A stretch of 32,500 nt of DNA from an uncultured Spirochaetales bacterium. GTDB lineage: Bacteria; Spirochaetota; Spirochaetia; Sphaerochaetales; Sphaerochaetaceae. The notes beneath the pieces are model-generated. The model saw only the letters and a program-made list of their open reading frames with translations, was not told the DNA's origin and did no database searches. Positions 5,598 to 24,464 of the stretch are shown in pieces (positions within the stretch are counted from its first letter, which is position 1; every line of letters begins with the position of its first letter). The position numbers and the translations under genes are program-made. The stretch covers positions 1-32,500 of the forward strand of contig CASDRY010000028.1 of NCBI GenBank assembly GCA_949283235.1, read 5' to 3'.

Positions 5598-6599
5598 ATG
5601 GAGATAAAACTGAAGAATCTGAGACGAAACTACGGCTCTCTTCATGCTGTAGATGATGTCTCATTGGTTATTCCATCAAATACTGTATATGGAATTATAG
5701 GTAAATCCGGAGCGGGGAAATCAACGCTGGTACGGCTTATATCTATGCTGGAGTCCCCAGATAACGGAGAAGTCTATTATGATGATAAGCGTGTAGATAA
5801 CCTCTCAAAGAAGGAACTCATAGAGGAGAGACGCCATATAGGAATGATCTTCCAGACATTCAATCTCTTCTCATCACGCAATGCAGCTGAGAATATTGCT
5901 TATCCAATGGAAATCTGCCATATGGAGAAAGATTACATAAAGAAGCGCACAGAAGAGCTTCTCGCTCTGGTAGGACTTGAAGGCAGGGGTAAAGCTCCTA
6001 TTTCAACGCTTTCAGGAGGACAGAAGCAGAGAGTAGCTATCGCGCGAGCTCTCGCTACGAATCCATCCATACTCTTCTGTGATGAAGCTACAAGCGCTCT
6101 CGATCCTCAGACAACAAGAGCAATTCTTTCACTCATAAAGGAAATCCAGAAGAAGATGAATCTCACAGTCGTGATGATCACTCATCAGATGGAAGTTGTC
6201 CGTGACTCCTGTGACAGGGTTGCTGTCCTCGATTCTGGTCATATCGTGGAAGAAGGTCTTGTCTCTGATATCTTCTCTGCGCCTCAGAGCGATGTTACAA
6301 AGGATTTTCTATCATCCCTCACCAATGTTCATGAATCAATGGTCAGATGGTCCAAGGATGGAGGGCATTACACGCTTCGCTTCCGTGGCTCGACTACAGA
6401 TGAGCCAATAATCTCGTCTGTTTCTTCTGTAACTGGAGCTATTTTCAATATAAGGGCTGCAGGTGTTCAGAATGTGAATAATGAGGAAATGGGCGTAATG
6501 GTTACGGATATCGGGCCAGATGAGGAAACAGCAAGGAAAGCTGTTACTCTTCTGAAGGAAAAAGGTGTCTCAGTTGAAGAGACAAAGGGAGGTGTATGA
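5598..6599 (+). CDS. metN: Methionine ABC transporter ATP-binding protein MetN
   Basis: MetN powers D/L-methionine import at the inner membrane. The 333-residue product (usual about 343) has Walker A GKSGAGKST (35-43), signature LSGGQ (138-142), Walker B ILFCDEA (158-164), and a C-terminal NIL/ACT-like regulatory domain (about 265-333) that in E. coli binds methionine and inhibits transport. ATG 5598 is preferred over TTG 5586 because TTGGAG ends 6 bases before it and the predicted transcript starts near 5586. The stop overlaps metI. The MetQ partner is about 1 kb downstream under its own promoter. Confidence 0.94.
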   Translation: MEIKLKNLRRNYGSLHAVDDVSLVIPSNTVYGIIGKSGAGKSTLVRLISMLESPDNGEVYYDDKRVDNLSKKELIEERRHIGMIFQTFNLFSSRNAAENIAYPMEICHMEKDYIKKRTEELLALVGLEGRGKAPISTLSGGQKQRVAIARALATNPSILFCDEATSALDPQTTRAILSLIKEIQKKMNLTVVMITHQMEVVRDSCDRVAVLDSGHIVEEGLVSDIFSAPQSDVTKDFLSSLTNVHESMVRWSKDGGHYTLRFRGSTTDEPIISSVSSVTGAIFNIRAAGVQNVNNEEMGVMVTDIGPDEETARKAVTLLKEKGVSVEETKGGV

Positions 6600-7285
6600 T
6601 GGAGCTGCTTCAGTCTTTTCTTGATGAGAGAATGTGGAGTCTTGTCGCATCTTCTACATGGCAGACAGTGGTGATGGTATTCCTCTCCACTATATTCTCC
6701 ATGATACTTGGCCTTCCTATCGGAGTGCTTCTCCATGTGACAAGCTCTGAAGAGCAGGGAGGTATAATACCGCATCCTGTTTTTTACAATGTGCTTTCCA
6801 GAATAGTGAACATCCTGCGTTCATTTCCGTTCATAATCCTCATGATTGTCCTCATGCCTCTTTCAAGGATCATCATAGGAACAAGTATCGGAACCATGGC
6901 TACAGTCATTCCTCTTTCTATAGCGGCGGCACCATTTGTTGCCAGGGTTATCGAATCCGCGCTGAAGGAAGTGGACCCCGGTGTTGTTCAGGCCGCGAAA
7001 GCTATGGGTTCCACCAATTGGCAGATAATCTTCAAGGTTCTCATTCCAGAGGCAATGCCATCTCTTGCTTCCGGAGTAACCCTCACCATAATAAACCTCA
7101 TCGGTTACTCTGCAATGGCTGGTGCTATCGGAGGCGGCGGATTGGGTGACCTTGCTATCAGATACGGCTATCAGAGATTCAACCCTGCATACATGGTTTG
7201 TGCTGTTGTTGTCATAATCATAATGGTTGAATTGATACAGTTCATAGGTGATAAAATAAGTGCAAGGTTAATTGCAAAGCGTTGA
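6596..7285 (+). CDS. metI: Methionine ABC transporter permease MetI
   Basis: An inner-membrane permease of 229 residues with about five membrane segments and the ABC EAA loop (AKAMGSTNWQIIFKVLIPEA) that docks on MetN. Two adjacent ATGs are possible: 6596 overlaps the metN stop, while 6599 sits at better spacing from AGGGAGG. Either gives a normal MetI. A perfect 9-bp terminator follows at once, so metNI is a two-gene unit separate from metQ. Confidence 0.93.
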   Translation: MMELLQSFLDERMWSLVASSTWQTVVMVFLSTIFSMILGLPIGVLLHVTSSEEQGGIIPHPVFYNVLSRIVNILRSFPFIILMIVLMPLSRIIIGTSIGTMATVIPLSIAAAPFVARVIESALKEVDPGVVQAAKAMGSTNWQIIFKVLIPEAMPSLASGVTLTIINLIGYSAMAGAIGGGGLGDLAIRYGYQRFNPAYMVCAVVVIIIMVELIQFIGDKISARLIAKR

Positions 7286-7288
7286 GAG

Positions 7289-7313
7289 AATCCCGACTCG
7301 GTCGGGATTTTCT
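7289..7313 (+). terminator. Rho-independent terminator of metNI
   Basis: AATCCCGAC (7289-7297) and GTCGGGATT (7301-7309) form a perfect 9-bp stem with a 3-base loop and end in a T tract. It begins 4 bases after the metI stop. Confidence 0.8.
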
Positions 7314-7397
7314 ATATCTAAAGTAAAAATCTTTTCAATATAATTCCTTGTATCAAAATGAGTAAATAAAATCTTTTTCAAAATACGGTAAAAATTA

Positions 7398-7426
7398 TTG
7401 CATACTCTTGCAGTTTTATGCATAAT
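7398..7426 (+). promoter_or_regulatory. Probable sigma-70 promoter of the metQ leader
   Basis: TTGCAT (7398-7403), exactly 17 bases, CATAAT (7421-7426). Predicted start near 7433, giving a leader of about 185 bases before metQ. The leader contains the Met-rich peptide. Confidence 0.6.
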
Positions 7427-7456
7427 GAAGCCATCAAAAGACAAGGAGGACACAGC

Positions 7457-7519
7457 ATGTTTAATTCAACATTCACAGCTATGATGATGTCCTCTATGAT
7501 GATGCCCGTCAGGGCATGA
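7457..7519 (+). CDS. Methionine-rich leader peptide upstream of metQ
   Basis: A 20-codon open frame, MFNSTFTAMMMSSMMMPVRA, with an excellent ribosome site (AAGGAGGA, 7443-7450, 6 bases before ATG). Seven of 20 codons are ATG, six of them in two runs of three (7481-7489, 7496-7504). The last codons before TGA (7505-7514) are the 5' arm of a possible 10-bp pairing with 7564-7573. This is the layout of amino-acid attenuator peptides such as those of his, trp or leu operons, here for methionine before a methionine-binding protein gene. The peptide itself probably has no function beyond being translated. I know of no named family for it. Confidence 0.7.
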   Translation: MFNSTFTAMMMSSMMMPVRA

Positions 7520-7581
7520 CACTTTTATTTCTCACCACATCTATATTCAGTTGTTTTCAGGTTCCCTGATGGGATTATTTT
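7505..7581 (+). promoter_or_regulatory. Candidate attenuator structure in the metQ leader
   Basis: CCCGTCAGGG (7505-7514) can pair with CCCTGATGGG (7564-7573), 10 bp with one G-T pair, followed by ATTATTTT (7574-7581). Competing local hairpins exist: GCCC/GGGC just before the leader stop, and TCAGG-TTC-CCTGA inside the 3' arm. TTTCTC (7528-7533) is also complementary to GAGAAA at the metQ ribosome site (7606-7611). Whether the long pairing terminates or antiterminates cannot be settled by reading. Confidence 0.45.
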
Positions 7582-7617
7582 CGAACGGTTTATCCGTATA
7601 TTCTGGAGAAAAAATAA

Positions 7618-8421
7618 ATGAAGAAATTGTTTGTAGTGGCTCTTGCCATCATCGCACTTGCAGTACCGGCTTTCGCTAATGGAGCGGAGGAAGAGAATTC
7701 AAATGTCATCAAGGTTGGTGCTACACCTGACCCACATGGAGCTATTCTCTCTCAGATTGTAGACCAGCTTGCAGAAGAAGGTTATGACCTTCAGATTGTT
7801 GAGTTCACAGACTATGTGACACCAAACGAAGCACTTGCTGCAGGAGAGCTTGATGCTAATTACTTCCAGCACCTTCCATACCTGGAGTCAGCAAATGCTG
7901 AGAGAGGATATTCTCTCGTATCTGCAGGTGGCATTCATATTGAGCCTCTTGCTGTATATAGCGATAAATACACATCCCTTGATCAGATTCCAGATGGTGC
8001 TACATTCGGTATTCCTAACGATCCTACAAATGAAGGAAGAGCGCTTCTTCTTTTGCAGAGCGCAGGTCTTATAAAGCTTGCTGACGATGCTGGTCTTGAA
8101 GCAGTTCCTGCTGATATCGTGGAGAATCCTCATGATTATGATTTCGTTGAAATCGAGGCTGCTTCCCTTCCGAGAATCCTTCCAGATGTTGATGCTGCTG
8201 TTATCAATGGAAACTATGCAATTCCTGCAGGTCTCATTGCTACTCGCGATGGTCTCTATGTTGAAGGTGCGGACAGCCCATATGTGAATGTAGTTGCAGT
8301 TCGCGAAGGCTCAGAGAATGAGCCAAAGATCCAGGCTCTCGTAGCAGCTCTCAAGAGCGATACAGTAAAAGAGTACGTAGCAGAACGCTATCCTAATGGA
8401 GAGGTTATCCTCGTAGATTAA
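7618..8421 (+). CDS. metQ: Methionine ABC transporter substrate-binding protein MetQ (NlpA family)
   Basis: MetQ captures methionine for MetNI. The 267-residue protein has a signal peptide (1-20, ending PAFA) and the NlpA fold signature: KVGATPDPHG start, FTDYVTPNEAL, and LDANYFQHLPYL. Most bacterial MetQ proteins are lipoproteins, but no lipobox Cys is present, so this one is probably soluble in the periplasm after signal peptidase I cleavage. The GGAG before ATG sets the start. It has its own promoter and leader, so it can be expressed in excess over metNI. A strong terminator follows. Confidence 0.94.
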   Translation: MKKLFVVALAIIALAVPAFANGAEEENSNVIKVGATPDPHGAILSQIVDQLAEEGYDLQIVEFTDYVTPNEALAAGELDANYFQHLPYLESANAERGYSLVSAGGIHIEPLAVYSDKYTSLDQIPDGATFGIPNDPTNEGRALLLLQSAGLIKLADDAGLEAVPADIVENPHDYDFVEIEAASLPRILPDVDAAVINGNYAIPAGLIATRDGLYVEGADSPYVNVVAVREGSENEPKIQALVAALKSDTVKEYVAERYPNGEVILVD

Positions 8422-24248: not shown

Positions 24249-24261
24249 TAGGTTTCAAATA

Positions 24262-24376
24262 CGGCATTGGAATATGCCGGCAGCGGTGAAAACCAGTCTG
24301 ATGCGACTAAGCGTAATGTTAAGTACGTTGGTCACCGCGGAAAGCCACCTCAGTTATATGTAGGTGGTTTCTTTTT
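24262..24376 (+). ncRNA. Candidate structured RNA with intrinsic terminator
   Basis: A run of compatible helices in an otherwise gene-free stretch. Hairpin CGGCAT/ATGCCG (24262-24279). A long helix GCGGTGA/TCACCGC (24283-24289 with 24332-24338), continued by CCA/TGG across an AAA bulge. It encloses two small hairpins, GTC/GAC (24296-24307) and CGTA/TACG (24312-24327). Last is a 9-bp terminator, AAGCCACCT/AGGTGGTTT (one G-T pair, 24342-24370), ending TTTCTTTTT. It could be a transposon-end guide-RNA relic, a regulatory RNA or a riboswitch without its gene. No known family was recognised. Confidence 0.4.
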
Positions 24377-24464
24377 CAGGTAAACATCTGGATATCCTGG
24401 CAAAAGTGCATATTGGATTGTAAGCTTTACGTATTGTTCATAAATAGATTATAAACAGTCCGCG

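Follow-up and report, generated by a model that had tools for sequence, protein, structure and literature searches.

A conserved methionine-codon leader upstream of metQ in a spirochaete family: a candidate ribosome-read methionine sensor

A short, methionine-rich open reading frame (ORF) directly precedes metQ in the 32,500-nucleotide stretch of spirochaete DNA analysed here (the window), and comparative sequence evidence indicates that the leader to which it belongs is real and strongly conserved. The ORF, its two clusters of Met codons, two RNA structures (P1 and P2), a tract that follows the stop codon and the gene context are all evident when related leaders are compared. As a whole, the leader is probably a ribosome-read methionine sensor with a likely Rho-dependent output, although the parts of this reading differ in strength. 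It is very likely that the Met codons make the translated leader responsive to methionine supply. An output through Rho is a more tentative proposal, suggested by base composition and by the absence of a terminator.

The leader and its RNA structures in the window

In the window, metN starts at about position 5598 and metI occupies positions 6596–7285. Transcription of metQ is separated from that of metI by an intrinsic terminator 3′ of metI (7291–7311, + strand), on which the terminator scan was also validated. The metQ gene (7618–8421, +) encodes a methionine ABC transporter substrate-binding lipoprotein (NCBIfam MetQ, 5e-69; Pfam NlpA, 8.5e-90) and is the gene predicted to be regulated by the leader. 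The promoter predicted for the leader–metQ transcript (7398–7426, +) comprises TTGCAT (7398–7403), a 17-bp spacer and CATAAT (7421–7426), which places the expected transcription start at A7433. An earlier note on this DNA had called this promoter consensus-like. The boxes are present, and TTGCAT-17-TATAAT-like boxes recur 5′ of the leader in relatives, but the description is generous, because the −35 box matches the consensus at only three of six positions, and the promoter was absent from the promoter scan. An imperfect inverted repeat, TGCATA..TATGCA, lies within the same promoter (7398–7426) and is kept in many relatives. Elsewhere in the window, positions 24255–24381 (+) match Rfam family RF02969 (DUF3800-I RNA) at 45.7 bits, against a gathering value of 44.2.

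The leader ORF, MFNSTFTAMMMSSMMMPVRA* (7457–7519, +), has 20 codons between a start ATG at 7457–7459 and a stop TGA at 7517–7519. It is preceded by the Shine-Dalgarno (SD) sequence AAGGAGG (7443–7449, +), which is found in nearly all relatives. Two runs of Met codons, each reading ATGATGATG, occupy codons 9–11 (cluster 1; 7481–7489, +) and codons 14–16 (cluster 2; 7496–7504, +). The ribosome site, the 20-codon frame and the two ATG runs ahead of metQ are all present in the sequence, as the earlier note had described them. Six of the 19 internal residues are Met, which has a binomial p of about 9e-6 given the local Met frequency of 2.8%. Among the window's 28 small ORFs with an SD ahead of them, this one has the most Met, and the runner-up has three. 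Taken over its full length, the leader RNA folds no more stably than shuffled sequence (z = −1.25).

P1 pairs the leader SD with an anti-SD inside the ORF. Its 5′ arm, GGAGGACA (7445–7452, +), pairs with the 3′ arm, TGTCCTCT (7488–7495, +), which is the anti-SD and lies between the two Met clusters; the assignment of both arms comes from covariation. Cognate SD/anti-SD pairs scored 19.9 compared with 15.9 for swapped pairs, and none of 5000 permutations scored as high. Double-change cells in P1 numbered 85, against 22 in shuffles, in a model-fitted alignment that leans to the structure, and in which a shift of the partner by 1–3 columns abolished the covariation signal; a MAFFT alignment gave 26 against 12. 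P1 is weak or missing in leaders L047, L049, L084 and L085, as well as in the two leaderless cases described below.

P2 is a hairpin, AUGCCC-GUCA-GGGCAU (7502–7517, +), in which 7502–7507 pair with 7512–7517, and it ends at the stop codon. Its stem is near-invariant across relatives (AUGCCC-NNNN-GGGCAU) with a free tetraloop, and the stem cells are paired in 99.8%. In L156, P2 reads AUGCGC-UAGC-GCGCAU, a fully compensated change from CCC/GGG to CGC/GCG, and in L157 it is a U-G variant, AUGCCU-UUCG-GGGCAU; together, these variants show that pairing is what matters in P2. Sensing of a proline codon or of m1G37 at CCC was also considered and set aside, since the codon is CCU in L157 and Pro is absent from L156. 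Both conserved structures, P1 over the leader SD and P2 over the stop codon, had been overlooked in the earlier note.

Conservation, distribution and downstream genes

MetQ matches were found in 130 of the 139 genomes of this gut-spirochaete family, and the upstream DNA was compared for most of the family's MetQ loci. When 50 leaders were turned into a covariance model and the 139 genomes were searched with it, the leader element was detected in 80 of them, spread over 8 of 22 genera. In the window's own genus, 46 of 48 genomes carry the leader, and the remaining two also lack a metQ match. Genera in which metQ lies directly 3′ of metI in one operon are mostly without it. The element is also carried by Bullifex porci, a cultured isolate from pig gut. 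Run on 393 sampled Spirochaetota genomes, the covariance model gave no credible match outside the family. When 84,980 species genomes were scanned for the exact pattern, there were 45 matches, comprising 40 in Spirochaetales and 5 chance matches elsewhere. Pattern matches in Erysipelotrichaceae, Rhodoferax and Maricaulis had no leader context and were discarded as chance, and the weak covariance-model matches L158–L163 were rejected as coding noise.

Comparison of the leader regions of relatives, a check proposed with the original reading, found the reading frame, the Met clusters and the stop position conserved in 81 distinct leader peptides. These are 17–27 amino acids long, except in one row with a wrong automatic start call. 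Met accounts for 26.6% of their internal residues, compared with a local background of 2.8%. With the Met codon that falls in P2 taken as codon 0, Met near the stop occurs at codon 0 in all 81 peptides, at −1 in 76 and at −2 in 66; at the upstream cluster, it occurs at −5 in 53, at −6 in 47 and at −7 in 58.

Met-Pro is kept at the P2 position in 80 of the 81 peptides. The residue after Pro (+1) is free (V, A, D, G, F, L, W or S) and is followed by R, W or G. The stop falls within the P2 loop in three leaders (L040, L046 and L075), whose peptides end MMMP*, and the peptide of L156 ends MMMMR*. The pattern of residues around Pro is attributed to the P2 stem and not to the peptide. In L076 and L095, the ORF is apparently leaderless: the SD is replaced and P1 is lost, with the Met codons and P2 kept. 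The spacing of the −10 box in these two cases, with the start at or next to the ATG, suggests that the ORF sits on a leaderless transcript.

The element is also found 5′ of genes other than the principal metQ. It precedes a second metNIQ (L105), a locus of MetQ-like and metN genes (L156), OppA-like peptide transporters that are putative methionine genes (L106 and L107), and the homoserine O-acyltransferase gene metA (L157). The arrangement with metA occurs only in genome G003; other metA genes follow another gene or are without the leader. Five operons that pair a MetQ-like gene with an M20 hydrolase also carry the element (L100, L101, L103, L104 and L108), in which the M20 amidohydrolase may act on N-acylated methionine or on a dipeptide. 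The MetQ-like protein of L100 looks circularly permuted, its two halves matching the MetQ/NlpA profile in swapped order; this was shown for L100, and the same permuted look is suggested for L101, L103, L104 and L108. One leader (L155; G116:C37:8416-8508, minus strand) occurs in a genome without a metQ match, where it precedes a ybdH-like oxidoreductase gene (PRK10586, over the cut-off) and a methionine-aminotransferase-like gene.

The element thereby shares two features with amino-acid leader-peptide regulators: a short ORF with its own ribosome site lies upstream, and its enrichment in Met codons matches the targets MetQ, MetN, MetA and related proteins. The conservation of the ORF, the Met clusters and the stop position, together with the methionine-related or transporter genes downstream, supports the central proposal of the earlier note, that a translated Met-codon leader would control metQ.

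Methionine genes are normally under the control of SAM-binding RNAs, T-boxes or DNA-binding repressors. The leader gave no covariance-model match to SAM riboswitches or other Rfam families: a search of positions 7380–7680 against Rfam had no match up to E = 5, and RF00162 (SAM-I) had no match in the window's genome. SAM-I riboswitches occur in 22 of the 139 family genomes. They were rejected as the missing control of metQ, as none of the eight SAM-I loci inspected precedes metQ. The inspected loci with a recognisable gene (L175, L176, L180, L181 and L182) precede metK or an O-acetylhomoserine-sulfhydrylase-like gene.

Proposed mechanism and alternative readings

In the proposed mechanism, the leader ORF would be translated from its own SD, which P1 would tend to close through the internal anti-SD. 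Since a Met cluster lies on each side of the anti-SD, all within the span of a single ribosome footprint, a ribosome waiting for Met-tRNA at either cluster would be expected to cover the anti-SD and hold P1 open. Placing a ribosome on Met cluster 2 in a folding model lifted the accessibility of the leader SD from 0.10 to 0.29, and a ribosome on the stop codon changed it too. With methionine plentiful, the ribosome would pass and stop at P2, P1 and P2 would refold, and re-initiation would drop; with methionine short, the leader would remain occupied and re-initiated. Judging by the function of the targets, the system would be ON when methionine is short. Ribosome stalling, the direction of the response and a role for Rho are inferences.

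A G-free, pyrimidine-rich, rut-like tract lies directly 3′ of the stop codon (7520–7549, +), the first G being at 7550. Across the 81 leaders, G is at or below 2% at nearly all positions from +6 to +18, and positions +6 to +50 contain 22% C and 9% G, compared with 13% C and 16% G in upstream intergenic DNA. Against a role for Rho, roughly one leader in four has a C/G ratio under 1.5 over the 55 nt that follow P2. Rho loading sites in Escherichia coli and Borrelia have a like composition (PMC12121999, PMC10319736), and Rho is active in Borrelia, another spirochaete (PMC10319736). The window's genome encodes a rho gene. Given the lack of a terminator and of a metQ switch (see below) and the adjoining rut-like tract, Rho appears the likeliest effector. 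The output would then most likely be transcriptional: the exposed tract would load Rho, and transcription would end before metQ unless ribosomes occupied the tract. The edge of a ribosome stalled at Met cluster 2 should lie a few bases before the tract, which leaves direct masking without an obvious geometric basis.

The earlier note had instead proposed a classical attenuator, in which stalling toggles an antiterminator (7505–7514 with 7564–7573) and an intrinsic terminator. The 10-bp pairing is indeed present in the window, with nine Watson–Crick pairs and one G-U pair, and its downstream arm (7564–7573) is followed by ATTATTTT, as the note had seen; this arm falls within P3, a small local hairpin (TCCC-TGAT-GGGA; 7563–7574, +) that forms part of the proposed pairing. 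All ten pairs, however, can form in only 2 of the 81 leaders, and P3-like hairpins occur in close relatives only and are absent from many others. The scan found no intrinsic terminator in the leader of the window, and 15 of the 81 leaders have terminator-like sites, compared with 4–13 in shuffles, although the same scan recovers the real terminators after metI and metQ. An intrinsic terminator at P2 or at P3 was considered and is not general among leaders. With neither an intrinsic terminator after the leader nor a conserved, mutually exclusive antiterminator pairing of the his/trp/leu kind, toggling between the two is very improbable, and this part of the earlier proposal falls away. Between leader and metQ, the close relatives L003–L013 have two elements in common, a small hairpin (GGUCCC..GGGAC) and the motif ACGG..CCGU; the window counterparts lie at 7563–7574 and at about 7586–7600, and neither is general in the family.

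The same Met-codon leader could instead act on translation or mRNA stability, with the ribosome opening or protecting the metQ message. We regard this output as possible but less likely than not to be the one used. It would fit the finding that the window leader has no terminator and the family no conserved one, as well as the SD–anti-SD nature of P1, a device typical of translational control. Similarly, the mycobacterial poly-Cys leaders are reported, in the accounts that cite the original study, to act on downstream translation (Canestrari 2020, cited in PMC9031893 and PMC13236596). P1, however, covers the leader SD and not the metQ ribosome site (GGAGA; 7605–7609, +). Mean accessibilities of the metQ SD in the folding model were 0.29, 0.30 and 0.33, the same with or without a ribosome at cluster 2 or at the stop codon. 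Nor does the metQ SD prefer its own upstream sequence over swapped partners for pairing. Among eight tests of co-evolution with the metQ ribosome site and other downstream sequence, run on segments of the leader and on the stretch between it and metQ, none was significant after correction, two of them (leader SD and P2 3′ arm) having nominal p values of 0.03–0.05. The suggestion that the leader switches the metQ ribosome site is not borne out by these results, and sequestration and release of that site by stalling, as in erm-type translational attenuators, was not seen in what is a thermodynamic model only.

The remaining alternatives differ in what would be sensed. If scarce fMet-tRNA slowed initiation on the leader, P1 would close first and the untranslated leader would be the ON or the OFF state. 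P1 does compete directly with initiation, leaderless variants exist, and a similar fMet-tRNA idea has been published for the streptococcal fthC uORF (PMC11109978). Initiation sensing nevertheless leaves unexplained the internal Met codons at fixed places flanking the anti-SD, and it seems unlikely. Methionine or SAM might also be sensed in the exit tunnel by a nascent peptide containing MMMP, as tryptophan is by TnaC. Retention of Met-Pro in nearly all peptides and the rut-like tract after the stop, as in tnaC (PMC8429421), are in line with such arrest; the variable residues after Pro and the MMMP* and MMMMR* endings speak against it, making it slightly less plausible still than initiation sensing. 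The near-invariant sequence of the P2 stem would suit a riboswitch in which P1 and P2 together bind a metabolite and the ORF is incidental. This is the least credible of the readings: Rfam returned no match, the frame, the start and the Met codons are conserved within an otherwise variable P1–P2 interval, and P1 is absent from the leaderless cases.

Ribosome-read sensing of methionine through internal Met codons thus remains the preferred reading. In its fullest form, it describes a regulator without a terminator, in which a Met stall keeps the leader SD open and continued leader translation keeps Rho off the rut tract, and which would be the main methionine control of a family with sporadic SAM riboswitches. 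This complete version is less likely than not to hold. Methionine starts every protein, and sensing at elongation and at initiation can therefore be directly separated in this system. The regulon is named (metQ, metNIQ, the MetQ-like operons and one metA), and the exact bases to mutate are given.

Comparison with known systems

No description of the spirochaete element was found in the open-access literature, a scope that leaves out most subscription journals. On the sequence evidence, it is a previously undescribed, conserved variant of leader-peptide control for which the attenuator details are unsupported. In attenuators of the his/trp/leu/ilv type, too, a translated leader carries codons for the amino acid of the pathway, whereas the spirochaete leader has no conserved terminator or antiterminator.

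Leaders with Met codons have been suggested twice before, with little conservation. In Campylobacter jejuni, a predicted MetL of 20 amino acids with three Met codons precedes metBA and is confined to three Campylobacter species (PMC3847290). In Streptomyces lividans, a predicted, leaderless MetL of 29 amino acids precedes metNIQ, with no clear intrinsic terminator (PMC8079986). Both resemble the spirochaete leader in placing a short Met-containing ORF before methionine genes, and the S. lividans case also in its want of a clear terminator. However, both are predictions without a described P1 or P2, and the MetL peptides, judged by their published descriptions, look unrelated to the spirochaete leader, which is supported by occurrence in eight genera and by covariation. 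The 81 distinct leaders, in which selection has acted jointly on the Met codons and two RNA structures, provide far stronger evolutionary support.

In the tnaC leader of the E. coli tryptophanase operon, which encodes 24 amino acids, a rut site lies directly after the stop codon and ribosome occupancy decides the access of Rho (PMC8429421). The tract is placed alike in the spirochaete leader, where its rut-like character is judged by composition only. TnaC arrests at its stop codon on free tryptophan through conserved nascent-chain residues, whereas the spirochaete leader has no conserved arrest residues at its C-terminus and it is the Met codons that are constant.

The closest studied system is that of the mycobacterial poly-Cys leaders of cys operons. 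These leaders have the regulated codons near the stop, no terminator and candidate polypyrimidine Rho sites, as in the spirochaete leader (PMC1262725). They differ in that they respond to cysteine, are actinobacterial and, as far as described in these sources, are usually leaderless (PMC1262725; Canestrari et al. 2020, as cited in PMC9031893). Furthermore, the polypyrimidine motifs of the poly-Cys leaders are stated not to be conserved (PMC1262725), whereas the G-free tract of the spirochaete leader is.
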